Under the pieces are notes generated by a model. The model saw nothing but the letters and a program-made list of their open reading frames with translations, had not been told where the DNA came from and searched no databases. The position numbers were made by a program, and so were the translations under genes. Below, in pieces: positions 20,754 to 33,921 of a DNA stretch of 64,000 nt. Location of the stretch: NCBI RefSeq assembly GCF_001295925.1, contig NZ_LJHQ01000003.1:310001-374000 (forward strand), written 5' to 3'. The first letter of the stretch is position 1; each line of letters starts with the position of its first letter. Source of the DNA: Allobosea sp. AAP35 (GTDB lineage: Bacteria; Pseudomonadota; Alphaproteobacteria; Rhizobiales; Beijerinckiaceae).

Positions 20754-21806
20754 TCAGGCCAGCGCCTGCGTGATCTCGGCAACCGTGGAACGCGCCGTCC
20801 GCATCACCCCGATCAGGGTCGCGGAGGCCGCTCCGGTCCAGTCGCCATAGCCGACGAGCCAGAGCCCCGGCTCGGCGAACGAGCGCGTGCCATCCGTGGC
20901 GACGCGGCCATCCTCGCCGACGACGCCGAGCGGCGCCAAGTGTGACAGAGCAGGTCGAAAGCCGGTGCACCAGATCACGGCGTCGACGGGAGACGCCGTC
21001 CCGTCCTGCCAGACCACTCCGTCCCGCGTGAAGCGGGTGAAAGGCGCGACCGCGTGCAGCACGCCGCGCTCGCGCGCCTCCTTGACGGGTGGCACCATCA
21101 CCACATCGCCAAAGCCGCCGACCGGCAGGTCGATCGTGCGGCCTTCCTGAGCGGCCTGCCAGCGCGCCGTCGCGCGTTCGAACAGCACGCGCCCATCGAC
21201 CTCATCGGGCAGGAAGGACGGCGGCGTCGCCGTCACCCAGGTGGCATCCGCCATCAGCGACAGCTCCGCCAGGATCTGCGCCCCCGAATTGCCGCCACCC
21301 ACCACGAGAACGCGCTGGCCGGCGAATTCGGTCGGCGTGCGGTAATCCGCAGAGTGGATCTGGCGCCCTCCAAAAAGGGCCTGATCGGGATAGTCCGGCC
21401 AGAACGGCTGGCGCCAGGTGCCTGTTGCGCTGATCACGGCGCGGGCCTTCCTCGGGCCGCTATCGGTCGCGATCGAGAACCCGTCGCCTTCGCGCGCGAC
21501 GGCCTCGACCTCGACAGGGCGCTCGATGTTGAAGCCGTAGCGGGCCTCGTAGCGGGTGAGGTAGTCGATCACCGCATCGCGCGCGGGGTAGCCGTCTGGG
21601 CTCGCCGGCATCGGCCAGCCCGGCAGCGAGCTCCATTGCGCCGGCGAGAACAGCCGCAGCGAATCCCAGGCATGGCGCCAGGCGCCGCCGGGCCCCGGCT
21701 CACCGTCGAGAATGGAAAAGCGCAGGCCGGCCCGGCGCAGGAAATAAGCGCAGGCAAGCCCGGCCTGGCCGCCGCCGATCACCACCACATCCAGCGGTTC
21801 GTCCAT
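20754..21806 (-). CDS. arsO: FAD-dependent monooxygenase, ArsO-like
   Basis: 350-residue flavoprotein of the pyridine-nucleotide-disulfide/flavin-monooxygenase type. FAD motif [20 protein letters not shown] is at about residues 8-27 and the NADPH motif [13 protein letters not shown] at about residue 165. An ATGxWxxP-like stretch ([14 protein letters not shown]) lies between, and VIWCTGFRP near residue 280. This size and context, the last gene after arsC-arsH-arsB, match ArsO, a putative flavin monooxygenase found in ars operons. ATG 21806 has GGAGGAGA upstream. Its true arsenic substrate is not well settled in the literature. Confidence 0.82.
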
Positions 21807-21856
21807 GCCGGCTCTCCTCCGCGAGGCCGTGTCCAGCGTCGTCGACGGCGCCAGGG

Positions 21857-23161
21857 TTATGACACCACCGGCAGCCAGAGCCAAAGCGCGCCCAGGGTGA
21901 CGAACAGGACCGGCGGCGTGATGACGAGCCCGACCTTCATGTATTGGCCCCAGCTGATCGTCTGGCCCTTGCCGGCGAGGACATGCAGCCAGAGCAGGGT
22001 CGCCAGCGAGCCGATCGGCGTGAATTTCGGCCCGAGATCATTGCCGATGACATTGGCATAGACCATCAGCTCCTGGGTCAGCGGCGCCACCGCTGCGCGG
22101 TCGATGGCGAGCGCGCCGACCAGGGTGGCGGGCATGTTGTTCATGATCGAGGCCAGCACGGCGACGACGAAGCCGGTGCCTACCGTGGCGACGAAGCTGC
22201 CCTGGCCGGCGAGCCAGACCAGAACGCCGGCCGCGATGTCGGTGAGCCCCGCATTGCCGAGCCCGTAGACCACGAGATACATGCCGATCGAGAACAGCAC
22301 GATCTGCCAGGGCGCCCCGCGCAGCACCTTCTCGACCGAGACCACGGCGCCCTTGCCCCCCGACAGCCAGCGCCCGGCGATGGCGACAAGGATGAGCGCG
22401 GCCGCACCCGTGACGAAGGCGATCGGGATACCGAGCGGGGCGGTCGCGAAATAGGCCACGAGCAGCAGCCCCAGCAGCGGAAAGGCGGCGCGGAACACGG
22501 CCTTGTCCCGGATTGCGGCGGCGGGCGCCTCGAGATCGCCGACGGCATAGGTGGCGGGGATATCCCGGCGAAAATACAGCCAGAGGACCAGCAGCGTCGC
22601 GCCCAGCGAGACGAGGTTCACCGGCACCATCACCGCCGCATAGCGCCCAAATGAGATCTGGAAGAAGTTGGCCGTGACGATGTTGACCAGGTTGGAGATC
22701 ACCAGCGGCAGCGAGGTCGTGTCGGCGACGAAGCCGCAGGCGACGATGAAGGCCATGGCGCCGGCCGGCGGGAAGTTCAGCCGCAGCAGGATCGCCAGCA
22801 CGATCGGGGTGAGCAGCAGCGCCGCGCCGTCATTGGCGAAGAAGGCGGCGATCACCGCCCCCAGCAGCACGACCAGCGGAAACAGGCGCCGTCCGTTGCC
22901 ACCGCCCCAGCGCGCGACATGCAAGGCCGCCCAGGCGAAGAAGCCGGCTTCGTCGAGGATCAGCGAGATCACGATCAGGCCGACGAAGGTGAAGGTTGCG
23001 TCCCAGACGATGTGCCAGACCGTGCCGACATCCGCCCAGCCGACGACACCCGCCAGCATGGCAACCGCAGCCCCACCGAGCGCCGACCAGCCGATGCCGA
23101 GCCCTTTCGGCTGCCAGATCACCAGAACGAGCGTCATCACGAAAATGGTGAGTGCGAGCAT
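21857..23161 (-). CDS. arsB: arsenite efflux transporter ArsB
   Basis: Inner-membrane As(III)/Sb(III) extrusion protein of the ion-transporter superfamily. 434 residues against 429 in the E. coli protein, with about 12 hydrophobic segments. Signatures seen are [19 protein letters not shown] at about residue 105 and a C-terminal half with [14 protein letters not shown] and [17 protein letters not shown]. It lies between arsH (74 bp upstream) and arsO (50 bp downstream), same strand. No arsA is present, so efflux would be driven by membrane potential alone. Confidence 0.93.
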
Positions 23162-23235
23162 GAAGCTGTCCGTGGAAAACGCGCGGTCAATGGCGGGGGG
23201 ATAGGCTGTCGCTGCCGGAATGGCCAGCCTGCGGG

Positions 23236-23967
23236 TCAGATCGCGCTTTGGTTGACGCGGGCCATCAGTGCGTCGGCGCTTTCCATCCGCTCCGAGTAGC
23301 GGTCTGTCAGATAGCCGGAGCGCCCCCGCGTCAGATGCGTGAACTTCACCAACTCCTCGCAGACATCGACGATGCGGTCATAGAGCGGGGAGGGCTTCAT
23401 CCGGCCGGCCTCGTCGAATTCGAGAAAAGCCTTCGGCACCGAGGACTGGTTTGGAATCGTGATCATCCGCATCCAGCGCCCGAGAATGCGCATCTGGTTG
23501 ACCGCATTGAAGCTTTGCGAGCCGCCGCTGACCTGGATCAACGCCAGCGTCTTGCCTTGCGTCGGACGTTTGGCGCCGAGGCTCAGGGGAATCCAGTCGA
23601 TCTGCGCCTTCATGATCGCGGTCATCGCGCCATGGCGTTCGGGGCTGACCCAGACCATGCCCTCGGCCCAGTCGGCGAGATCGCGCAGCTCCGCGACCTT
23701 GGGGTGATCGGGCTCGGCGCCATCGGGCAGCGGCAGGTCGCGCGGATCGAATGTGCGGACCTCGCAGCCGAGAAAGCGCAACAGGCGGCCGGCCTCCTCG
23801 GAAGCCAGACGCGAATAGGAGCGCTCCCGGATCGAGCCGTAGAGCACGAGAATGCGCGGCTTGTGAGCGGGGGCATCAGGGCCGCCAAGCGCCGCGACGT
23901 CGATTGGTGCGAGCTGCGTCGGCGTGAGGTTGGGCAGGTCGCGGCCGTCGGGAGACGCGTTGGTCAT
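23236..23967 (-). CDS. arsH: NADPH-dependent FMN reductase / organoarsenical oxidase ArsH
   Basis: Flavodoxin-like flavoprotein, 243 residues. The FMN loop [14 protein letters not shown] (about residues 40-53) and the ArsH signatures [22 protein letters not shown] and [15 protein letters not shown] are all present. ArsH oxidises trivalent methyl- and aryl-arsenicals to the less toxic pentavalent forms. Its ATG overlaps the arsC stop (ATGA), so the two are translationally coupled. A role for organoarsenicals fits with the phosphonate-type importer at the head of the same gene run (inference). Confidence 0.95.
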
Positions 23968-24377
23968 GGCGTCTTTCTCGCCGCGCCGACGACCTCGCCA
24001 TCCTCCTTCACGAAACGCGCGACCGGATGGTCGAGCAGATCGAGGACCGTCTCCGAGGGGCGGCAGAGACCGACGCCCCTGTCGGTGACCACGATGGGAC
24101 GGTTGATCAGGATCGGATGTGCCATCATCGCATCGAGTAGCGCGTCGTCGGGCAGGCTTTCATCGCTGAGACCGAGCTGTGCATAGGGCGTGCCCTTCTC
24201 GCGCAGCAGAGCACGCGGCGGCAGCTGCATCGCCGCCAGCAGGCCGATCAGAGTCTCGCGGCTCGGCGGGGTCTTGAGATATTCGATCACGCTGGGTTCC
24301 TCGCCGGATTGACGGATCATCGCGAGCACGTTGCGCGAGGTTCCGCAGGCGGGGTTATGATAGATCGTGACGGCCAT
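23964..24377 (-). CDS. arsC: glutaredoxin-dependent arsenate reductase ArsC
   Basis: 137-residue arsenate reductase of the E. coli/R773 type. The active-site motif CGTSR carries catalytic Cys11, and the anion-binding arginine region is in [18 protein letters not shown]. It converts As(V) to As(III) for export by ArsB. AGGAGG lies 6 nt upstream of ATG 24377; the longer open frame covers the phnE gap and is rejected. It follows phnE after 83 bp on the same strand and overlaps arsH by 4 bp. Confidence 0.95.
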
Positions 24378-24460
24378 GACGAGCCTCCTCTTGCGATCTC
24401 CCCGACGGCGGCTTGACGGCTCGATGGGCGACAGGCTGGTCGCGCCTGCCGCCATCGGCG

Positions 24461-25267
24461 CTAGATGATGCGGCGCCGCAGCGAGCCGCCGATCTGCTCG
24501 ACCGCCACCACCAGCGCAAACACCGCCAGGATGATCGTCAGCGCCGTGTCGTAGTCGAACAGGTCGAAGGCGACCTTGAGCTCGACACCGATGCCGCCGG
24601 CACCGACCAGGCCGAGAACGACCGAGGCCCGCGTCGCCTTCTCCACGCAAAACAGCGAGGTCGCGATGAAGGAGGGCATGGCGTTGGGCACCACGGCCGA
24701 GAAGATCAGCCCCGTCTTGCTCGCGCCGATGGTCGATAGCGCCTCGCGCGGGCCCTTGTCGGTCTCCTCCATCGCCTCGGCGAAAAAGCGCCCGGCATAG
24801 CCGATCGTGTCGATCATCAACGCCAGCACGCCGGCTGCCGGCCCCAGGCCGACCGCGATGACGAAGAATAGCGCCCAGATCAGGTCCGGCACCGTGCGGA
24901 AGAACGCGATCAGGCCCCGCGCCAGCGTCCGCACGATCGGGTGGGGCGAGAGCCCCTCGGCGGCCAGCACCGCGAGCGGGAAGCTCAGGATCAGCCCGAG
25001 AACGCAGCCCGACACCGCCATCTGGAAGGTGGTGGCCAGCGACCACAGGATCGAATCGAGCCGAGACAGATCCGGCGGGAACATCCGTCCCAGGATGTTG
25101 CCCATATAGGGCACGCCCCGGATTAGTTTCTCGGCGGACAGTTCGGAGCCGCTGAACGACCAGATCACCAGCGCTAGCGCCAGGAACGTACCGATGAAGG
25201 TCGTGGCGCTGGGGCGGGCGAAGCGGTCGGTCGTGGCAGCCAGGCGGGGTGAGGCGGACAGGCTCAT
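24461..25267 (-). CDS. phnE: phosphonate-type ABC transporter permease (PhnE-like)
   Basis: Inner-membrane permease of a phosphonate/phosphite-class ABC importer, 268 residues with six hydrophobic segments. The EAA-type cytoplasmic loop is EALSTIGASKTGLIFSAVVPNAMP and GLVGAGGIGVELKVAFDLFDY is typical of PhnE. It overlaps phnC by 4 bp (ATGA). Unusually, arsC-arsH-arsB-arsO follow on the same strand with no opposing gene, making it part of an arsenic gene run. The true ligand may be a phosphonate, phosphite or an arsenic analogue. Confidence 0.9.
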   Translation of the reverse strand: MSLSASPRLAATTDRFARPSATTFIGTFLALALVIWSFSGSELSAEKLIRGVPYMGNILGRMFPPDLSRLDSILWSLATTFQMAVSGCVLGLILSFPLAVLAAEGLSPHPIVRTLARGLIAFFRTVPDLIWALFFVIAVGLGPAAGVLALMIDTIGYAGRFFAEAMEETDKGPREALSTIGASKTGLIFSAVVPNAMPSFIATSLFCVEKATRASVVLGLVGAGGIGVELKVAFDLFDYDTALTIILAVFALVVAVEQIGGSLRRRII

Positions 25268-26118
25268 GTCAGCACCGCCAGCGGCCTGGTAGCCGGCTCG
25301 ATGTTGTCGCTCGGCTCGTCAGGCGCCTCGAAGAAGGCGGCGAGTTCGGCCTCGTTGCAATGCAGGGCCCGGCGGTCGAGCGCGATGCCGCCGCCGCTTT
25401 CGCTGCGACCCAGACCGACGATCCGGTCGGAGAAGCGCAGCGCATGCGCCATATGGTGCGAGACGAAGATCAGGCTCAGCCCCTTGTCGCGGGTCAGCCG
25501 GAACAGAAGCTCCATCACCTCGCGCCCGGCGCGCGGATCGAGGCTGGCATCGGGCTCGTCGGCCAGCACGAGTTCCGGGCGCTGCATCAGCATCCGTGCG
25601 ATCGCGACACGCTGGGACTGGCCGCCCGACAGGGAATCGGCGCGCTGCATAGCCTTGTCGGCAAGCCCGACGGCATCGAGGCAGGCCATGGCCTCCTCAC
25701 GGACTTCGGCGGTGGCAAGCGATTGCGCCCAGGCGCGCGGACCCGATTGCCGCGATTGGACGCCATGCACCACATTGGACAGCGCGCTCAGCCGCGCGAC
25801 GAGGTTGTGCTTCTGGAAGACGACGCCGACCCGGGCCCGGAAGCGCTTCAGCGCGATGCCGCGCAACCCGCCGACCGTCTCGCCGAGCACGCGGATCTGG
25901 CCGGCATCGGCCTCGGCGAGCCGCACGATCATGCGCAGCAGCGTCGATTTGCCGGTTCCGTTCGCGCCGATCAGGGCGAGCGATTCCCCGGCCGGCACCG
26001 CGAGGTCGAGGCCGTGCAGGATGCGGCGCGGGCCGAAGCTCTTGCTCACCCCGGAGATGGCGACGACGGGGGAGGGTTCCCCCGTCGTCGCGGTGGTGTC
26101 GGAACCGGTCGGTATCAC
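25264..26118 (-). CDS. phnC: phosphonate-type ABC transporter ATPase (PhnC-like)
   Basis: ATP-binding subunit, 284 residues. Walker A is GANGTGKST at about residue 50, the Q-loop VVFQKHNLV follows, the signature is LSGGQSQR and Walker B LVLADEPDASLD. The signature is LSGGQSQR rather than the usual LSGGQQQR, a conservative change. The long linker between Walker A and signature matches PhnC (FRARVGVVFQKHNLVARLS). It overlaps phnD and phnE by 4 bp at each end, so the three subunits are co-translated. Confidence 0.92.
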   Translation of the reverse strand: MIPTGSDTTATTGEPSPVVAISGVSKSFGPRRILHGLDLAVPAGESLALIGANGTGKSTLLRMIVRLAEADAGQIRVLGETVGGLRGIALKRFRARVGVVFQKHNLVARLSALSNVVHGVQSRQSGPRAWAQSLATAEVREEAMACLDAVGLADKAMQRADSLSGGQSQRVAIARMLMQRPELVLADEPDASLDPRAGREVMELLFRLTRDKGLSLIFVSHHMAHALRFSDRIVGLGRSESGGGIALDRRALHCNEAELAAFFEAPDEPSDNIEPATRPLAVLT

Positions 26119-26984
26119 TCGATGAACTTGCTGAATTCGGTGATGCCGATCGTGGCGTAGATCGCCCGGACATAGTCGTAATCGGAGTCCTTGACCTCGG
26201 GCAGGAAGACGCCGCCGGCGAATTTGCGGTTGTCGTCGGTGCCGGTGACGACCGCCTTCATCAGATCGGTGCCATGGTCGAGGAAGGCCTTGCGGATCTT
26301 GGCGACGATCTCGGGCTTCACCTTCGGGCTGGCGATCATCACGTCATTGGGCAGATCGCGCCCGCGCGCCACGACGAAGAAGCCGGTCTTGGTGTCGCTC
26401 TCGCGGATGCGCTGGAGATGGGTCAGGTTGAGGCCGATGGCGGCGATGTCGCCGCGCTTCATCGCCTCGACGGCGACATTGCGCTTCACGAAGATCGGCT
26501 TGTAGTCGACATTGTATTTCAGGCCGGCATCGGCCAGCGCCTGCGCCGGGCCCAGATGCTGCGAGGTCGAGCCGATCTCGCCGAAGGAGATCGTCTTGCC
26601 CTTGAGATCGGCGACGCTCTTCACCGGCCCGGTCGCCAGGACCGCGACCTGGCTGAAATAATCGGGACGCTGCCAGCCGACCACCGGCACGGCCTGGGTG
26701 CGTGCCTTGAACACCACATATTCGGCTGGCCCGGTCAGGACGAAATCGACCTGGCCGGCGGCCATGGCCTCGACGGCGGCGGTGCGGCCGGAGACGGCGA
26801 AGAACTGGACCTTGACGTCGGTCAGCTTCTCCAGTGCCGCCTTGAAGGGCCCGAATTCGCGCTGCAGCGATTCCGCCCCATCGATGTCGGTGACGGCGAA
26901 GCGGACCGCGTCCTGCGCCTGGACGGCAGGGGCGGATATGAGCGAGGCGGCGGTGACGAGCGCGCAGGCAAGCTTCTTCAGCAT
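26115..26984 (-). CDS. phnD: phosphonate-type ABC substrate-binding protein (PhnD-like)
   Basis: Periplasmic binding protein, 289 residues. The signal peptide ends SAPAVQAQ. The anion-binding loop GSTSQHLGP at about residues 155-163 matches the S-T-S-x-H ligand site of PhnD, and GPAEYVVFKAR is a family landmark. First gene of phnD-phnC-phnE and divergent from phnM-like across a 159-bp gap holding an inverted repeat. The PhnD fold binds the phosphonate head group, but arsonate or arsenate mimics cannot be excluded. Confidence 0.92.
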   Translation of the reverse strand: MLKKLACALVTAASLISAPAVQAQDAVRFAVTDIDGAESLQREFGPFKAALEKLTDVKVQFFAVSGRTAAVEAMAAGQVDFVLTGPAEYVVFKARTQAVPVVGWQRPDYFSQVAVLATGPVKSVADLKGKTISFGEIGSTSQHLGPAQALADAGLKYNVDYKPIFVKRNVAVEAMKRGDIAAIGLNLTHLQRIRESDTKTGFFVVARGRDLPNDVMIASPKVKPEIVAKIRKAFLDHGTDLMKAVVTGTDDNRKFAGGVFLPEVKDSDYDYVRAIYATIGITEFSKFIE

Positions 26985-27058
26985 CGCGTTTCTCCTTTGG
27001 TTGGATGGCGGCGGTAAGCCCGGGCGATGACGCAGCCGTGACGGACCGGCTTCGGTTT

Positions 27059-27077
27059 GATGACGCTCGTTGTCATC
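27059..27077. promoter_or_regulatory. inverted repeat in phnD/phnM divergent promoter
   Basis: GATGAC (27059-27064) and GTCATC (27072-27077) form an inverted repeat with a 7-bp spacer. It is 75 bp from the phnD start and 67 bp from the phnM start, almost centred. An outer pair GTGACGG (27038-27044)/CCGTCAC (27081-27087) surrounds it. It would suit control of both directions by one regulator; which one is unknown. Confidence 0.35.
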
Positions 27078-27143
27078 CTTCCGTCACCGACGCGCGTCAT
27101 GGGCCGGTCCCCGGCGGGCGGCCGCAGGCCAGGAGACGGCGAG

Positions 27144-28286
27144 ATGGCGATTTACATCACCGGCGGAACGGCCCTGCTCGACGAACTCACGCGCGTCGAT
27201 GTCCTGACCGACGGGGCCTCGATCGCAGCGCTCGATGCGCCCGCGCCGTCGGGCACGCTGCGCCTTGATGCGACGGGCCTGCTGGTGCTGCCGGGGATCG
27301 TCGACTGCCATGGCGACGCTTTCGAGCGGCACATCATGCCGCGCCCCAAGGTCGCCTTCGACATCGATCTGGCGCTCCGCGATACCGATCGCGCATTGCT
27401 CGCCAATGGCATCACCACGGCCTTCCATGGCGTGACCTGGTCCTGGGAGCCGGGCCTGCGGAGCGCCGAGAATGCGCGCCATCTGTTCGCGCGCATCGAT
27501 GCGCTGGCCCCCGAATTCGGCGCCGACACGCGCTTCCATCTGCGCCACGAGACCTTCAACCTCAATGCAGAGACCGAAATCCTGGCCTGGCTCGCGACGG
27601 GCAAGGTCGGGCTCCTTGCCTTCAACGACCACACCGAGGGCACGCTGAAGACGCGGCACCGCCCCGACAAGGTCGGCAAGATGGTCGAGCGCTCGGGGCT
27701 GACCGCAGAGGCCTTCGCCGCGCTGGTCGAACGCGTCTATGCCCGCAAGGACGAGGTCGCCGCCTCGCTGACGCGGCTGGCGGCGGCGGCGCGCGCTCAC
27801 AACGTGCCGATGCTCTCCCATGACGACATGACGCCGGAGATGCGGCGCTGGTATCGCGGCCTCGGCGTGACGGTGGCCGAGTTCCCGATCGACGAGGCGA
27901 CCGCGCGCGAGGCCGCAGCCGAAGGCGAGGCGATCGTCTTCGGCGCGCCCAATGTCGTGCGCGGCGGCTCGCATACGGGCTGCCCCTCGGCCGAGGCGAT
28001 GGTCCGCGCCGGCCTCTGCACCATCCTTGCCTCCGATTACTATTATCCGGCGCTGCTGCTGGCGCCCTTCCTCCTCGCTCGAAACGGCGCGGCCAGCTTC
28101 GCGCAGGCCTGGTCGCTGGTCTCGGCTGCGCCGGCGAAGGCATTCGGTCTGGATGATCGCGGCGTGATCGCGCCCGGCAAGCGCGCCGATCTCGTGCTGG
28201 TCGAGGACAAGGAGCAGCCGCGCGTCATAGCGGTGATCGCGGCGGGAAAATTGGTCCATCTGAGCGATCAGGCCGTGCTGGCTTGA
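27144..28286 (+). CDS. phnM: PhnM-like amidohydrolase (ribose-1-phosphonate 5-triphosphate diphosphatase family)
   Basis: 380 residues, near the 378 of E. coli PhnM. The metal-binding N-terminal strand GIVDCHGDAFERH (about residue 59), SHDDMTPE in the middle, and ILASDYYYPALLLAPF near residue 300 are all PhnM-type. PhnM normally removes pyrophosphate from alpha-D-ribose-1-phosphonate 5-triphosphate before C-P lyase. No phnGHIJKL is in the window. ATG 27144 has AGGAGA 8 nt upstream. It is divergent from phnDCE and followed 96 bp later by arsR, so it may have been recruited to arsenic handling. Confidence 0.88.
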   Translation: MAIYITGGTALLDELTRVDVLTDGASIAALDAPAPSGTLRLDATGLLVLPGIVDCHGDAFERHIMPRPKVAFDIDLALRDTDRALLANGITTAFHGVTWSWEPGLRSAENARHLFARIDALAPEFGADTRFHLRHETFNLNAETEILAWLATGKVGLLAFNDHTEGTLKTRHRPDKVGKMVERSGLTAEAFAALVERVYARKDEVAASLTRLAAAARAHNVPMLSHDDMTPEMRRWYRGLGVTVAEFPIDEATAREAAAEGEAIVFGAPNVVRGGSHTGCPSAEAMVRAGLCTILASDYYYPALLLAPFLLARNGAASFAQAWSLVSAAPAKAFGLDDRGVIAPGKRADLVLVEDKEQPRVIAVIAAGKLVHLSDQAVLA

Positions 28287-28321
28287 GGAAAACCACGGAC
28301 GAGCTCAGTCGGACTCCACAC

Positions 28322-28349
28322 CAATCGACACATCTGGATTTATCGATTG
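28322..28349. promoter_or_regulatory. inverted repeat upstream of arsR, candidate ArsR operator
   Basis: CAATCGA (28322-28328) and TCGATTG (28343-28349) are perfect arms with a 14-bp spacer. The right arm overlaps TTGACA (28347-28352), a plausible -35 element, 34 bp before the arsR ATG. This arrangement fits autorepression. Confidence 0.45.
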
Positions 28350-28382
28350 ACAGCACGGCGGGCCTGCGACATCCATGCCGGC

Positions 28383-28700
28383 ATGGAGATGATCGACGCT
28401 GCCGCCAGATTGGAATCCCTCGGTAACCCGACGAGGCTCGCGCTCTATCGCCTGCTGGTGCGGGCTGGCCCCGCCGGTCTGTCGGTCGGCGAGTGCCAGC
28501 AGCGGCTTGCGACCGCGCAGTCGACCCTGTCCTTCCATCTCAAGGCACTGATCATGGCCGGGCTGGTGACACAGGAGCGTCAGAGCCGGACGCTGATCTG
28601 CCGGGCGAATTACGAGGTCATGAACGCGCTGGTCGGGTTCCTCGTCGCCGAATGCTGTGTCGATGAACGCTGCCAGCCGGCACAGCCGGACGCTGCCTGA
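28383..28700 (+). CDS. arsR: ArsR-family metalloregulator
   Basis: 105-residue winged-helix repressor. The core is LESLGNPTRLALYRLLVRAG, then recognition helix AQSTLSFHLKALIMAGLV. The C-terminal AECCVDERC (CC-x4-C) resembles the three-cysteine As(III) site of Acidithiobacillus-type ArsR. It would release DNA on binding arsenite. Start is ATG 28383; a TTG at 28347 would overlap the candidate operator. It lies between phnM-like and an MFS exporter on the plus strand, probably as part of one unit. Confidence 0.9.
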   Translation: MEMIDAAARLESLGNPTRLALYRLLVRAGPAGLSVGECQQRLATAQSTLSFHLKALIMAGLVTQERQSRTLICRANYEVMNALVGFLVAECCVDERCQPAQPDAA

Positions 28701-28747
28701 GACCGATGATGAGGCTCCTCTGGAGCGATGGAGCTTGCGACCGCCTG

Positions 28748-29995
28748 ATGACGACCCTGCCCACCCCGCTTCGCCAGCCCGCCGCGCGCGGTGGTCTGGG
28801 CCTCATCGGCGCGCTCGGCGCCACCCAGGTGGCCGGCTATGGCACGCTCTATTATGCCTTCGCGGTGCTTGCCCCCGAAATGACCCGGAGCTTCGGCTGG
28901 GCGCCCGAATGGACTTATGGTGCCTTCGCCGCCGGCTTGCTCGCGGGTGGCATTGCCGCGCCGTTTTCGGGCCGTCTGATCGATCGATACGGCACGCGGG
29001 CGATGATGAGCCTGGGCACGGTCCTTTCGGCCGCCTCGCTCTACGCCCTGTCGCAGGCGCGCGAGCCGGTGAGCTTTTATGCCGCGATGATCGCGCTCGA
29101 GATCGTCTCGACGCTGGTGCTCTACGACGCCGCCTTCACGGCGCTGACCCAGGCTCACGGATCAGGCGCGCGTCGGGCGATCAGCAAGCTGACCCTGATC
29201 GGCGGCTTCGCCTCGACCCTGTTCTGGCCGCTGACGACGGCCCTGCTGACGCAATATGACTGGCGGGCGATCTACCAGATCTACGCGCTCGGCTATCTGG
29301 CGCTGTGCCTGCCCCTGCACCTGGCCCTTCTGCCCGCCGGGGGCGCTCTCAAGCCCGTCGCCAAAGGGCCGTCCGCGCTGCCGGATGCGGCGCCGGAAAC
29401 CTATCTCGTCGGAACGGCGCGCACGCGCGCCTTCCTGTTGCTCGCGCTCGCCTTCTCGCTGCAGGGCTTCGTCGTCTCGGCGATGGCGGTGCATATGCTG
29501 ACCATGCTGCAGGGGCTGGGCCTCAGCGCCGCGCTGGCTGTCGGCATCGGCGCGATGGTCGGCCCCTCGCAGGTCGCCGGACGGCTGGTCGAGATGCTGT
29601 TCGGCACCAGCCTAGAGCCGACGACGACGGCCTGGGTCTCCGCAACGCTGATGCCGATCGGCTTCGCGCTGCTGCTCGTCAGCGGCACCACGGCCACGCT
29701 GGCGGGGCTGTTTGCCATCGCCTATGGCATCAGCATGGGGCTGAGCTCGATCGTGCGCGGCACCGTGCCGCTGCGGCTGTTCGGGCCGGCCGGCTATGGC
29801 GCGATGCTCGGCAAGCTCTCGGCGCCAGGGTTGGCCATCAGGGCTGCGGCGCCGGTGGCCTTCGCCGTCATGGTCGAGCGCGCCGGCCTGTTGCCGAGCA
29901 CGCTGCTGCTGATCGCGCTGTCGGGGGCGGCGGCGGTCGCGCTGTTCCTGCTGTCGCGCTATCCCGTCGCCGCGCCTGTCCGTGTCGAGAGCTAA
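28748..29995 (+). CDS. MFS transporter, possible ArsK-type arsenic exporter
   Basis: Twelve-segment major facilitator protein, 415 residues from ATG 28748; an ATG at 28706 would add 14. GRLIDRYGTRAMM after the second segment is the MFS loop motif A. It lies directly after arsR and within an arsenic island. That is the setting of ArsK, an MFS exporter of arsenite, antimonite and trivalent organoarsenicals in Agrobacterium. The link to ArsK rests on context, not on diagnostic residues, so general MFS drug export remains possible. Confidence 0.75.
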   Translation: MTTLPTPLRQPAARGGLGLIGALGATQVAGYGTLYYAFAVLAPEMTRSFGWAPEWTYGAFAAGLLAGGIAAPFSGRLIDRYGTRAMMSLGTVLSAASLYALSQAREPVSFYAAMIALEIVSTLVLYDAAFTALTQAHGSGARRAISKLTLIGGFASTLFWPLTTALLTQYDWRAIYQIYALGYLALCLPLHLALLPAGGALKPVAKGPSALPDAAPETYLVGTARTRAFLLLALAFSLQGFVVSAMAVHMLTMLQGLGLSAALAVGIGAMVGPSQVAGRLVEMLFGTSLEPTTTAWVSATLMPIGFALLLVSGTTATLAGLFAIAYGISMGLSSIVRGTVPLRLFGPAGYGAMLGKLSAPGLAIRAAAPVAFAVMVERAGLLPSTLLLIALSGAAAVALFLLSRYPVAAPVRVES

Positions 29996-30060: not shown

Positions 30061-30957
30061 TCAGGCGGCAGTGGCCAGCGATTTTTGGGTCGCCCCATCC
30101 ATCCGGCCGATCGCGGCCATCACGGGCTGGAGGTCCTGCAGCCGCATGTGCTCGAAGGGCAGGTTGACGAAGGCGCTGACGCGAGCGGTCAGATCCCGGT
30201 AGCTCTGCACGAAAGCGGCCCGCCGGGCGGAGTCCGGGCCCGCGGTCGCGGCGGGGTCGTCGAGGCCCCAATGGACTCGCATCGGCACGCCCGGAAAGCT
30301 TGGGCAGGTCGCCTCTGCCGCGTCGTCGCAGATGGTGATGACGAGGTCGAGTTCCGGCGCGTCGGCGCCCAGGAACTCGTCCCAGGATTTCGACCGCATC
30401 GCGCCGACGTCATAGCCCAACTCGCCGAGCAGGCCCAGCGCCAGCGGATGCGGTGCCTCCTGCGGGCGGCTGCCGGCCGAAAATGCCTCGATTCGGCCAA
30501 GGCCCTCCCGGTTGAGAACCGCCTCGGCCATGATCGAGCGCGCCGAATTGCCGGTGCAGACGACCAGGACCCGCAAGGGGCGGTCGCTGGCGACATATTC
30601 CCGGCGTGCCGGAACGACCGAACGCTGCGGGGCGCAGGCCGCCGGAGCTTCGGTGCAGCACGCCTCCGACAGGAAGACCAGAAGCGCATCGGCACGCGAA
30701 GCCTGGGCGGCGAAGATGATGTGGCGGCCTTCGCGCCGCGAAGCCAGCAATCCGACCTGCTCGAGCGAGGCCAGATGTGACGACAGCGTATTGTGCGCCA
30801 CCGCCAGCAGCCGGCCGATATCGCCGGCTGCAAGCCCATGCGGGCGATAACGCATCAGCAGCTTGAAGATCTCCAGCCGCGTCGGCTGCGCCAGGGCCCC
30901 GAGCAGGGCCACGGCGTCGGGAGAGTCGAGCCGCGAAGCGGCTGGTTTGGCTGTCAC
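30061..30957 (-). CDS. fused ArsR repressor - low-molecular-weight-phosphatase ArsC
   Basis: 298 residues with two domains. Residues 12-105 are an ArsR winged helix (ALAQPTRLEIFKLL; HNTLSSHLASLEQVG) ending in a CC-x6-C arsenite site, C100, C101 and C108. Residues 128-265 are a LMW-phosphatase-type arsenate reductase with P-loop C134TGNSAR140 and resolving cysteines C210 and C218. The linker is about 20 residues. Sensor and enzyme in one chain suggest that product As(III) directly derepresses the operon (inference). It overlaps the upstream arsC by 4 bp (ATGA) and shares its promoter. Confidence 0.93.
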   Translation of the reverse strand: MTAKPAASRLDSPDAVALLGALAQPTRLEIFKLLMRYRPHGLAAGDIGRLLAVAHNTLSSHLASLEQVGLLASRREGRHIIFAAQASRADALLVFLSEACCTEAPAACAPQRSVVPARREYVASDRPLRVLVVCTGNSARSIMAEAVLNREGLGRIEAFSAGSRPQEAPHPLALGLLGELGYDVGAMRSKSWDEFLGADAPELDLVITICDDAAEATCPSFPGVPMRVHWGLDDPAATAGPDSARRAAFVQSYRDLTARVSAFVNLPFEHMRLQDLQPVMAAIGRMDGATQKSLATAA

Positions 30958-31487
30958 GCAGCGTTGTCCCTCTGCAGCGGAGCGGTCCGCCCCATATCCT
31001 TGCCGATCGCGTCGAGCCGGTGCTGCAGCGCCATGCCCTGCAACGTCGCCAGCGGCAGGCTCGCGAAAATCGAGATGCGGTTGTTGAGCATGCGGTAGGC
31101 GTCGGCGAAGGCAAGCGCTTTCTGAACGTCGTCGCCCTCAAAGGCGGCGGGATCGGGCAGGGTCCACAGCGCCGTCGTCGGATTGCCCGGCCAATCCGGC
31201 GCGACCGCGTTGGCGGCGGTCTCGGACAGCGTGAACACGAAATCGAGATCCGGCGCGCCGGCCTTGGCGAACTCGTCCCAGCTCTTGGGCGCGAGCCCGG
31301 TCAAATCATGATTCAGCGATTTGAGCAGCCGCACCACGAAGGGGTTGACCTCGGGCCGTGGCTGCGAACCGGCGCTGAACACTGTGAACTTGTCGCCCGG
31401 CAGCCGACGCATGATCGATTCCGCCATGATCGAGCGGGCGTGATTGCCTTTGCAGACGAACAAAACCTTGAGGGGGGACGTTTCCAT
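30954..31487 (-). CDS. LMW-phosphatase-fold arsenate reductase homologue without resolving cysteines
   Basis: 177 residues. The P-loop C12KGNHAR18 is intact, and KSWDEF and the overall length match LMW-phosphatase ArsC. The two redox cysteines seen in its fused neighbour are replaced: C210 aligns with S88 and C218 with A96. It could reduce arsenate with an external thiol, act as a phosphatase, or be an arsenate sensor. ATG 31487 is preferred over longer starts because these would run through two operator palindromes. First gene of the pair with the ArsR-ArsC fusion, divergent from GAPDH-arsJ. Confidence 0.82.
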   Translation of the reverse strand: METSPLKVLFVCKGNHARSIMAESIMRRLPGDKFTVFSAGSQPRPEVNPFVVRLLKSLNHDLTGLAPKSWDEFAKAGAPDLDFVFTLSETAANAVAPDWPGNPTTALWTLPDPAAFEGDDVQKALAFADAYRMLNNRISIFASLPLATLQGMALQHRLDAIGKDMGRTAPLQRDNAA

Positions 31488-31498
31488 GATTGATCTCG

Positions 31499-31522
31499 TT
31501 ATGTCGGTTAGGGTCGACATAA
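31499..31522. promoter_or_regulatory. inverted repeat TTATGTCG-N8-CGACATAA, candidate ArsR operator
   Basis: Perfect 8-bp arms in the divergent gap, 12 bp upstream of the arsC-like start. Shares ATGTCG/CGACAT with the palindrome at 31536-31557, so the same protein probably binds both. The fused ArsR-ArsC protein of this operon is the likeliest ligand. Confidence 0.6.
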
Positions 31523-31535
31523 TGTGATCGTCAAT

Positions 31536-31557
31536 CATGTCGGAGTCAACCGACATG
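31536..31557. promoter_or_regulatory. inverted repeat CATGTCGG-N6-CCGACATG, candidate ArsR operator
   Basis: Perfect 8-bp arms, spacer six. It lies 14 bp from the first palindrome and about 63 bp upstream of the GAPDH start, so it probably serves the rightward promoter while the other serves the leftward one. Confidence 0.6.
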
Positions 31558-31619
31558 TTGACATATTGTCGTCATCCGGGGCATGGACGATGCTGCGACA
31601 GCGAAGGGAGCTTGGAAAC

Positions 31620-32663
31620 ATGCGGGTCGGAATCAATGGCATGGGGCGGATCGGGCGCCTGGCCCTGCGGGCGGCGCTGGGCGCGGCCGAGCGGCAGAGC
31701 GACGACCCGCGCGCCGGAAACCGCCTCGACATCGTCCATCTCAACGAGATCAAGGGCGGGGCGGCCGCAATCGCCCATCTGCTGGAATTCGACAGCATGC
31801 AGGGCCGCTGGCGCGGCGGCATCGCAAGCCCAGGCGAGGATGCAATCACGATCGGCGAGCGCCGGCTGGGGTTCTCGGCTGAGGCCGCACCGGGCGACAT
31901 CCCCTGGGGCGATCTCGGCGTCGATGTGGTGCTCGATTGCACCGGGAAATTCCTGACGCCGGCTGCGCTGGAGGGCCATCTGAAGCGCGGCGCCAAGCGC
32001 GTCATCGTCGCCGCGCCGGTGAAGGACGCCTCGGTCCTCAACGTCGTCGTCGGCATCAACGAACATCTCTACGATCCCGCCACGCACCCGATCGTCACCG
32101 CTGCCTCCTGCACGACCAACTGCCTCGCACCGGTGGTGAAGGTCGTGCATGAGAATCTGCGCATCCGGCACGGCCAGATCACCACCATCCATGATCCGAC
32201 CAACACCAATGTGGTCGTCGACGCGCCTCACAAGGATTTGCGCCGCGCCCGCTCGGCGATGCTCTCGCTGCAGCCGACGACGACGGGCAGCGCCACCGCC
32301 ATCGCGCTGATCTATCCCGAACTCAAGGGCAAGCTCGACGGCCATGCCGTGCGTGCGCCGGTGCTCAACGCCTCGCTGACGGACTGCGTCTTTGAACTCG
32401 AGCGGCCGACGACTGCCGCCGAGGTCAACGCGTTGTTCGAGGCGGCTGCCAAGGGGCCGCTGGCCGGCATCCTCGGCTTCGAGCCCAGGCCGCTGGTCTC
32501 GATCGACTACCAGCGCGATACGCGCTCCGCCATCGTCGACGGGCTCTCGACGCTGGTCACCGACGGCACCATGCTCAAGGTCTATGCCTGGTACGACAAT
32601 GAGATGGGCTATGCCTGCCGCATGGTCGATCTCGCCTGCCATCTCGAACAGATCGGGATCTGA
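31620..32663 (+). CDS. ars-linked glyceraldehyde-3-phosphate dehydrogenase
   Basis: 347 residues, typical GAPDH. NAD motif [15 protein letters not shown] is at residues 3-17 and the catalytic Cys164 is in [10 protein letters not shown]. The C-terminal [15 protein letters not shown] is present. Beside arsJ its role is to add arsenate to glyceraldehyde-3-phosphate, giving 1-arseno-3-phosphoglycerate, which ArsJ exports. Start at ATG 31620 with AAGGGAG about 10 nt upstream. arsJ follows after 4 bp, so the pair is one unit, divergent from the arsC/arsR-arsC pair. Confidence 0.93.
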
Positions 32664-32667
32664 GCCG

Positions 32668-33921
32668 TTGACCGAGGGCTCGCGCAACTACGCCATCGTC
32701 ACTGCCGCCTATTGGGGCTTCACCCTAACCGACGGCGCCTTGCGCATGCTCGTTCTGCTGCATTTCTTCCGGCTGGGCTACTCGCCCTTCACGCTCGCCT
32801 TCCTGTTCCTGCTCTACGAGGCGGCCGGCATCGCCGCCAATCTGATCGGCGGCTGGCTTGCCGTGCGCTACGGCATCACCCGTATGCTCGCGATCGGGCT
32901 GGTGACGCAGATCCTCGGCTTCCTGCTGCTCTCGGGCCTGTCGCCCGACTGGACGGCGGCCGCGTCCGTCGCCTGGGTGGTGATGGCGCAGGGCATCTGC
33001 GGCGTCGCCAAGGATCTGACCAAGACGGCCTCGAAATCCGCGATCAAGGTCGCCGAGGCCGCGGCCCGCATTGAAGACGCCGAGGGCCGGCTGTTTCGCT
33101 GGGTCGCTTGGTTCACCGGCTCCAAGAACGCGATGAAGGGCATCGGCTTCTTTCTCGGCGGATTGTTGCTGGAAGCGCTGGGCTTCCGCGGTGCGCTCTG
33201 GGCGATGGCGGCGATGCTGGCGCTGATCCTGTTTGGCGTGCTCACTTTCCTGCCGGCCCAGATGGGCAAGGCCAAGGCGAGCAAATCGGCGCGTGAACTC
33301 TTCGCCAAGAATCGCGCCGTCAACCTGCTGGCTCTGGCCCGCGTCGCGCTGTTTGGCGCCCGCGACGTCTGGTTCGTCGTCGGCGTGCCGGTCTTCCTCT
33401 ACGCCTCGGGCTGGACCTTCACGCTGGTCGGCACCTTCCTGGCGGTCTGGACGATCGGCTACGGCCTGATCCAGGCAGCAGCGCCCGCCTTCATCCGCCG
33501 CAGCCCCGACGGGCTGTCGAGCGAAGTCCCGGCCGCGCGGCTCTGGTCGCTGGCGCTCGCCATCATCCCCTTCGCCATCGCAGCGCTGCTGGCCGGCGGG
33601 GTGGGCTTGCGACCCGATCTCGTGCTCGTCGTGGGCCTGAGCCTGTTCGGCTTCGCCTTCGCGGTGAACTCGTCGGTCCACTCCTATCTGATCCTGGCCT
33701 ATGCCGGGTCGGAGAAGTCGGCCGAGGATGTCGGCTTCTACTATGCCGCCAATGCGCTCGGCCGTTTCCTGGGAACGCTGCTGTCGGGGCTGCTCTACCA
33801 GGCGGGCGGTATCCAAGCCTGCCTGCTCGGTTCGGGGCTGATGCTGGCGGCCTGCTTCATCGCGACGATGGCGCTGCCAGGCCGCGCCGCAGTGACACCG
33901 GTGCGCAGCCAGGCCGGCTGA
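32668..33921 (+). CDS. arsJ: organoarsenical efflux MFS transporter ArsJ
   Basis: 417-residue MFS protein with the ArsJ N-terminus NYAIVTAAYWGFTLTDGALRM and the characteristic cytoplasmic GVAKDLTKTASKSAIK. ArsJ extrudes 1-arseno-3-phosphoglycerate, which then falls apart to arsenate outside the cell. With GAPDH this gives arsenate resistance without reduction. TTG start four bases after the GAPDH stop; the ribosome site is weak, so coupling with GAPDH translation is probable. Confidence 0.93.
   Translation: MTEGSRNYAIVTAAYWGFTLTDGALRMLVLLHFFRLGYSPFTLAFLFLLYEAAGIAANLIGGWLAVRYGITRMLAIGLVTQILGFLLLSGLSPDWTAAASVAWVVMAQGICGVAKDLTKTASKSAIKVAEAAARIEDAEGRLFRWVAWFTGSKNAMKGIGFFLGGLLLEALGFRGALWAMAAMLALILFGVLTFLPAQMGKAKASKSARELFAKNRAVNLLALARVALFGARDVWFVVGVPVFLYASGWTFTLVGTFLAVWTIGYGLIQAAAPAFIRRSPDGLSSEVPAARLWSLALAIIPFAIAALLAGGVGLRPDLVLVVGLSLFGFAFAVNSSVHSYLILAYAGSEKSAEDVGFYYAANALGRFLGTLLSGLLYQAGGIQACLLGSGLMLAACFIATMALPGRAAVTPVRSQAG

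Follow-up and report, generated by a model that had tools for sequence, protein, structure and literature searches.

Arsenate enters cells via phosphorus importers. Genes for phosphonate uptake and use (phn) have been described close to arsenic (ars) genes. In Agrobacterium tumefaciens 5A, four phn1 transporter genes are up 2.8- to 15.6-fold under As(III), and three are also up in an arsR1 mutant without arsenic (PMC7965956). Six phn1 operons were counted among 21 arsenic oxidase islands, with that of Alcaligenes faecalis given as phnDCEE' and the role of the phn and pst genes in such islands treated as an open question (PMC3834237). The aioBA genes of Halomonas sp. HAL1 have a Pho box and are under PhoB control, being active at low phosphate (PMC4563254). 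Here, we describe a locus of Allobosea sp. AAP35 in which a predicted phosphonate-type importer, phnDCE, with a divergent phnM, runs directly into arsC-arsH-arsB-arsO. The window analyzed is a 64,000-nt stretch (RefSeq assembly GCF_001295925.1, contig NZ_LJHQ01000003.1, positions 310,001 to 374,000), and its phn copies are named phnDCE2 and phnM2.

The locus resembles the phn1 operons of arsenic islands in having a second phn importer near ars genes and another phn operon elsewhere (PMC3834237, PMC7965956). Those islands were delimited by the presence of aioBA, pst genes are frequent in them, and phnM is not mentioned in the text of PMC3834237. Here, in contrast, phnE is followed by ars genes in the same orientation, and Pho-box-like repeats lie in the promoter region of the phn genes. 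A Pho box in front of arsenic genes is shared with Halomonas sp. HAL1 (PMC4563254), though arsenite oxidase is driven there, whereas here the repeats precede a predicted phosphonate importer and then genes for reduction and efflux. Among plasmid systems, pMAQU01 of Marinobacter nauticus VT8 carries phnDCE-M-GHIJKL-NP, with PhnD, PhnE, and PhnM 47%, 52%, and 41% identical to the window proteins; there the importer is joined to carbon-phosphorus (C-P) lyase, whereas here it stands apart from C-P lyase and divergent from phnM. A plasmid of Acetobacter senegalensis has the same ars gene set in the order arsR-arsC-arsB-arsH-arsO, with arsR at the head and overlapping arsC, whereas here phnE stands in front, there is no arsR, and arsH precedes arsB. 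The linkage of arsenic and phosphate is thus published; the new part is the joining of an ars block without arsR behind a phn operon, seen in one genome. In the open PMC literature searched, we found no report of phnM beside an ars operon or of arsC-arsH-arsB-arsO behind phnE. We consider it probable that three units lie side by side here: a Pho-type phn module, an arsR-arsK unit, and an ars block lacking its own arsR.

Layout of the locus and the junction behind phnE

On the minus strand, phnD2 (26115–26984), phnC2 (25264–26118), and phnE2 (24461–25267) are followed by arsC (23964–24377), arsH (23236–23967), arsB (21857–23161), and arsO (20754–21803). On the plus strand, phnM2 (27147–28286) is followed by arsR (28383–28700) and an arsK-type gene (28706–29995). 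Overlaps of 4 bp join phnD to phnC, phnC to phnE, and arsC to arsH; the gaps are 83 bp between phnE and arsC (24378–24460) and 74 bp between arsH and arsB. A preliminary description of this DNA had given the same order, strands, 4-bp overlaps, and gaps of 83 bp or less, with phnM divergent and followed by arsR, and the coordinates bear it out. The arsenic genes extend past the block noted there, through the arsK-type exporter behind arsR to a second arsenic cluster with GAPDH-ArsJ that ends at 33921. All four products of the block score above their family cut-offs: the glutaredoxin-type arsenate reductase ArsC (TIGR00014, 133.3 bits against 106.05; ATG chosen at 24377), ArsH (TIGR02690, 385.8 against 292.25), the arsenite efflux pump ArsB (NF011980, 646.6 against 457), and the ArsO-family flavin monooxygenase (NF040505, 569.8 against 425; start chosen).

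The arsCHBO block is preceded by phnE and has no arsR at its head; the arsR at 28383 lies on the other strand, beyond phnM. In the 83-bp gap, AGGAGG precedes the arsC ATG, and a scan limited to the sigma-70 consensus, by which weak promoters would be missed, recognized no promoter. An imperfect GC-rich inverted repeat in the gap (24427–24453) was considered as a special RNA structure or terminator and rejected (z-score of -1.2 against shuffles, no T-run). Because the block has no arsR at its head, AGGAGG before arsC, and neither a T-run nor a recognized promoter in the gap, read-through from the phnD promoter is the simplest reading, and arsCHBO is probably transcribed in this way. Elsewhere, besides the Acetobacter operon, further plasmids list the same set of ars gene names, and the genome with the closest ArsH in the family sample (G789, 77%) has an ArsR-like match directly before arsC. 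In the window, phnE occupies that position.

We then compared the locus with its relatives by tblastn, using a panel of proteins from the window and from contig C31 of the same genome; the panel was without Acr3, ArsM, and ArsP, and genes of these kinds may therefore have escaped notice. The nearest relative (G1015, PhnM 85% identical) has the order phnECD|phnM-arsR-FMO-arsK, where FMO is a flavoprotein gene. Its DNA aligns with window positions 24458–28674 at 84.8%, and the alignment ends at the end of phnE, behind which G1015 has a convergent methyltransferase gene and no match to any ars panel protein. Either the arsCHBO block was therefore added behind phnE once this lineage and G1015 had separated, or G1015 lost it; we favor gain because the block is absent behind phnE in the other loci seen, and arsC-arsH-arsB-arsO thus looks like an added block without arsR. 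As a separate observation, the flanks outside 24458–29947 do not align with the G1015 locus (L171), which would fit a relocation of the shared phn-arsRK block or a rearrangement of the DNA around it.

Among other genomes of the genus, to which Bosea also belongs, 40 carry PhnM2, and loci were fetched for 29. In five of these Bosea loci, arsR stands directly behind phnM (L142, L151, L152, L157, and L158), and in eight phnD is divergent from phnM; G1015 alone has both arrangements. Weak arsR matches (34–35%) lie 1.7 and 2.7 kb from phnM in G1010 and G1042. One scan of genome contigs yielded 45 PhnM2 loci, four of which have any ars match: arsR and arsK in L054 and L065, arsR in L078, and a 29% reductase match in L074. 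In the order and family samples, none of the 16 other phnE2 loci has an ars match in its flanks (1.5 kb at most, two being shorter at contig ends). The adjacency of phnM and arsR is found in relatives, that of phnE and arsC was seen in one genome, and the phnDCE/phnM module recurs in Bosea and other Alphaproteobacteria mostly without ars genes nearby. In a PhnM tree of 38 rows (the window, the 29 genus loci, and 8 others chosen by hand), the ars-linked rows fall into two groups, the window with G1015 (support 100/99) and four others (100/100); a single origin of the ars-linked rows is possible.

The arsR product belongs to the ArsR/SmtB repressors (NF033788, 60.9 bits against a cut-off of 55; PF12840 and PF01022 also above cut-off; ATG chosen at 28383), and the arsK-type product is a major facilitator superfamily exporter scoring 374.3 bits for NF033733, under the cut-off of 400. 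A candidate promoter found by eye precedes arsR at 28347–28375 on the plus strand: TTGACA, 17 nt, CATCCA, and 7 nt to the ATG. The layout TTGAC(A/G/C)-17-CATC(A/C/G)(A/T), 6–7 nt before the arsR ATG, is present in all four loci compared (the window, G1015, L054, and L065). Because this layout is common to relatives, arsR-arsK is probably a unit separate from phnM with its own candidate promoter. A palindrome before arsR, CAATCGA-14-TCGATTG, was rejected as an ArsR operator, not being kept in G1015, L054, and L065. The flavoprotein gene between arsR and arsK in G1015, L065, G1004 (L184), and G1054 (L185) is missing from the window; its product, of about 500 residues, is distantly ArsO-like (47 bits against a cut-off of 425).

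The phn module, its promoter region, and C-P lyase

Pho boxes were scored against CTGTCAT-4-CTGTCAT, two 7-bp direct repeats 4 bp apart, out of 14. The gap between phnD and phnM holds two Pho-box-like direct repeats, one toward phnM at 27070–27087 on the plus strand (11/14) and one toward phnDCE at 27027–27044 on the minus strand (10/14). Over 127,966 scored positions, the window has three sites of at least 11/14, that at 27070 being one of them, and the phnD-phnM gap is the only place in the 64 kb with a plus-strand site of at least 11/14 and a minus-strand site of at least 10/14 within 162 bp. The 45 PhnM2 loci were divided afterwards by PhnM identity (at least 69% against less) into 20 Bosea-type and 25 other loci. 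All 20 Bosea-type loci (L050–L068 and L070) score 10–13/14 on the plus strand upstream of phnM, 19 of them at least 11; the score of 10 in L066 was equaled by 23 of 300 shuffles, those of the other Bosea-type loci by at most 4. Among the 25 other loci, of which 17 have C-P lyase genes in the stretch, two reach at least 10 on the plus strand (L088 and L094) and two on the minus strand (L084 and L094). The repeats and their conservation point to a Pho-type promoter region of the phn module's own, putatively under PhoB control. Such a separate phn promoter region would speak against the preliminary proposal that the phn genes are co-induced with arsenic detoxification if it does not respond to arsenic.

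Genome-wide, 38 Pho-type sites have at most two mismatches, compared with 7 for a reversed-pattern control. Five sites have a single mismatch; they stand upstream of ugpB, pstS, phoH, a third phnD, and priA, with a box of 13/14 for the third phnD set. Of the 38 sites, loci are available for 8, genes having been looked up for the five one-mismatch sites and for three with two mismatches: two of these three are at one insertion sequence, so the genome list is not pure, and one is at a gene without a family match. An 11/14 site stands in front of phnC on contig C31, in a 19.5-kb stretch that holds three such sites. The site before priA, at C31 positions 66489–66506, is one of the five best matches in the genome and lies about 140 bp before a gene that is no usual Pho gene.

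PhnE2, the permease, scores above cut-off (TIGR01097, 264.2 bits against 216.7), as does the periplasmic binding protein PhnD2 in PF12974 (130.6 against 27). The best NCBIfam match of the ATPase PhnC2 is TIGR02315, at 216.8 bits under a cut-off of 266.1. PhnM2, a PhnM-family amidohydrolase, is above the subfamily cut-offs NF011987 (447 against 253) and NF011990 (294 against 233) and under the equivalog cut-offs NF011985 (535 against 656), TIGR02318 (348 against 390.6), and NF011984 (252 against 260). The preliminary description had called this PhnM solitary and C-P lyase absent. The window indeed holds no C-P lyase genes, but the genome does: its one PhnJ match is on C31, surrounded by PhnG, PhnH, PhnK, PhnL, PhnM, PhnC, and two PhnE above NCBIfam cut-offs, with PhnD also on that contig. 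The C31 gene in the place of phnI had no family match at E 1e-40 in the NCBIfam scan, and genes of TIGR03308 and TIGR03223 come after the run. PhnM2 is therefore not solitary in the cell, the C31 protein (PhnM1), 33% identical, being a second PhnM; phnC and phnD are present in at least three sets in this genome.

An alignment of 5 PhnM2 and 6 PhnM1 sequences has the motifs HxD, E, PR, HDD, EFP, GAPN, RG.SH.G, and SDY in common, which we take to be active-site motifs. A PhnJ match was found in all 45 genomes carrying the PhnM2 loci, that of G995 being a 58-residue fragment where a contig ends. Of 385 genomes sampled from the class, this one included, PhnM2 (E ≤ 1e-60) is present in 36, and 35 of these have PhnJ (G154 is without), compared with 30 of the 349 genomes without PhnM2 (Fisher 1.6e-30, uncorrected for kinship). 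Relatives that have the module but no nearby ars genes thus do have C-P lyase in their genomes, which largely matches what the preliminary description had named as counting against its proposal. At 17 of the 45 PhnM2 loci, phnG, H, I, or J lies within the fetched stretch. A PhnM1-like gene stands in one stretch with PhnM2 at 11 loci (L077, L079–L082, L084, L085, L087, L090, L091, and L093), 10 of them with C-P lyase genes. On pMAQU01, the PhnM2-type PhnM is the sole phnM in the run, and two other plasmids have phnECD divergent from phnM-phnF. In one of these arrangements, on plasmid pOT1-5 of Haematobacter massiliensis (L178), phnECD|phnM-phnF stands beside Tn3-family transposases and recombinases, and the phn module may therefore travel. 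Because PhnM2 co-occurs with PhnJ, is present in such plasmid runs, and keeps the motifs of PhnM1, it is most simply read as an extra PhnM, and the phn part of the locus most likely serves C-P lyase as an ordinary accessory of Pho type. More broadly, a second PhnM recurs with C-P lyase across Alphaproteobacteria, often with an importer of its own.

We also examined PhnD2, for which an AlphaFold2 model had a mean predicted local distance difference test score of 86. By sequence, profile, and Foldseek E-value, its best match is PtxB, followed by PhnD-type proteins, with ArrX lower and AioX lower still; the profile scores are 91 bits on the PtxB side compared with 29.5 bits for ArrX. The fold leaves room for arsenate, since template modeling scores for ArrX (0.66–0.71) are as high as those for PtxB (0.62–0.72). 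Both importer profiles are under cut-off (PhnD, 80 against 261; TIGR01098, 111.9 against 112.05). The cysteine of AioX is Cys106, with Asn in place of the Thr of the STS motif (PMC5908839). The sole cysteine of PhnD2, at position 7, lies in the signal peptide, so the protein has no counterpart of Cys106, and its STS motif has Thr, as in PhnD. The PhnD alignment comprised the window and 20 of 25 PhnD rows, a duplicate of the window and four plasmid rows being left out. GPAEYVVF, GSTSQHLGP, and RDLPND are identical in PhnD2 and in seven Bosea-group orthologues without ars matches nearby, and five of these seven also share NVAVEA. We looked for a change in PhnD2 specific to arsenic and found none in the motifs compared.

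Proposed coupled transcription and competing explanations

In the explanation that we prefer, phnDCE2 and phnM2 would make up one divergent module whose shared promoter region holds two Pho-box-like sites, and both arms would be activated by phosphorylated PhoB once phosphate is exhausted. The importer would take in phosphonate- or phosphite-like phosphorus compounds, and PhnM2 would act as an extra alpha-D-ribose 1-alkylphosphonate 5-triphosphate diphosphatase serving the C-P lyase on the other contig. Behind phnM2, arsR-arsK would be a separate unit with its own promoter, while arsC-arsH-arsB-arsO, without a leading arsR, would have joined directly behind phnE in this lineage, with read-through from the Pho-type promoter as its most likely source of transcripts. 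The benefit would lie in timing: the proteins for arsenate reduction and arsenite efflux, together with ArsH and ArsO, would be produced just when the high-affinity importers for phosphorus, through which arsenate also enters, are opened. A stronger form, which we hold tentatively and at somewhat short of an even chance, is that PhoB, acting at the boxes ahead of phnD, drives phnDCE-arsC-arsH-arsB-arsO as a single transcription unit, so that phosphorus hunger turns on arsenate reduction and arsenite efflux ahead of any arsenic sensing, with arsR-arsK and the ArsJ cluster staying under arsenic control; this would be a feed-forward defense that arose when the ars genes lost arsR and were captured by a Pho operon upstream. 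Phosphate hunger rather than arsenic may thus turn on part of the arsenic defense, and read-through, if real, shows how anticipatory arsenic control can arise by operon capture. The locus lends itself to a clean test, since the Pho-type module is conserved, the nearest relative lacks the ars block, and that block is without its repressor. The preliminary description had also linked phosphorus scavenging to arsenic detoxification; this weaker idea holds up in altered form, as arsCHBO does lie downstream of a control box, but one of the phosphate-starvation type.

Several points weigh against this explanation. The window boxes are weaker than those of most orthologues, and the plus-strand site is among 33 two-mismatch sites of the genome, a class in which chance sites are expected. 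PhnC2, PhnD2, and PhnM2 are all under equivalog cut-offs. The histidine of the PhnD, PhnD1, and AioX pockets is Asn169 in PhnD2 (the PhnD1 pocket being described in PMC10284923), so the ligand cannot be read from sequence. An arsC promoter of cryptic type could lie in phnE or in the gap, given a scan limited to the sigma-70 consensus; a protein might bind the gap's GC-rich inverted repeat as an operator, and a terminator-like site lies inside phnE at 24792–24804 on the minus strand, one of 9 such sites found compared with 5.9 expected by chance. Read-through is itself something that we infer from gene arrangement, the junction between phnE and arsC was seen in one genome only, and the history of the locus is only partly traced because its flanks do not align with G1015.

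Some of these points would suit neighbors without coupling, in which the ars block came behind phnE by chance and is served by its own cryptic promoter, with no link between arsenic and phosphonate. The sighting of the junction in one genome only, the lack of ars matches in the flanks of the 16 other phnE2 loci, the inverted repeat, and the terminator-like site all fit chance placement, as does the recurrence of ars genes behind phnM in five of 29 other Bosea loci as a unit with its own promoter layout. We nevertheless regard it as unlikely, given the shared strand, the 83-bp gap with AGGAGG and neither T-run nor recognized promoter, and the presence of ars genes on both sides of the phn module. 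An arsenic-induced phosphorus importer, in which ArsR represses phnDCE and arsenic relieves the repression so that phosphorus supply is kept up under arsenate stress, has a precedent in phn1 of A. tumefaciens 5A (PMC7965956) and in the six phn1 operons of arsenic oxidase islands (PMC3834237). It would also accord with the rise of phnI and phnM of A. tumefaciens GW4 under Sb(III) (PMC5328403) and with an adjacent arsR here and in five of 29 relatives. This is rather improbable, however: Bosea loci with no ars genes in the vicinity also keep the Pho-box-like repeats of the phnD-phnM gap, inspection of that gap by eye showed no layout like the arsR promoter, and ars matches are lacking near the module in most of the carriers examined.

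The preliminary description had suggested that PhnDCE, PhnM, and ArsH take up and process an arsono- or organoarsenical compound, an idea that draws on the adjacency of the genes and on a fold that PhnD2 has in common with arsenate-binding ArrX and arsenite-binding AioX. By sequence and profile, though, PhnD2 is nearer PtxB and PhnD, the phosphite and methylphosphonate binders, than ArrX; it has no cysteine outside the signal peptide, and its compared motifs are shared with orthologues that have no link to ars. PhnM2 is associated with C-P lyase, and a common ars operon includes ArsH and ArsO but no phn genes. Together these make such uptake highly improbable. The chance that the phnE-arsC junction is an assembly artifact appears slighter still: it was seen in this genome only and the break coincides with the end of G1015 homology, yet the junction is internal to a 527-kb contig, in an assembly given as 99.97% complete and 0.01% contaminated, and the ribosome-binding site and spacing are sensible.

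The second arsenic cluster and other features of the window

Gene calling by conservation of open reading frames was tried and dropped, as it was disturbed by antisense frames in this GC-rich DNA. Searches of the 64-kb window against Rfam at gathering scores and for tRNAs gave no matches. Beyond arsK, the second arsenic cluster (30061–33921) holds an ArsR-arsenate reductase fusion and another reductase-like protein, neither of which reaches the arsC_pI258 cut-off. Divergent from the reductase-like genes are those for an ArsJ-linked GAPDH and ArsJ, both above cut-offs. Two perfect inverted repeats were found by eye in the cluster, TATGTCG..CGACATA at 31500–31521 and CATGTCGG..CCGACATG at 31536–31557.

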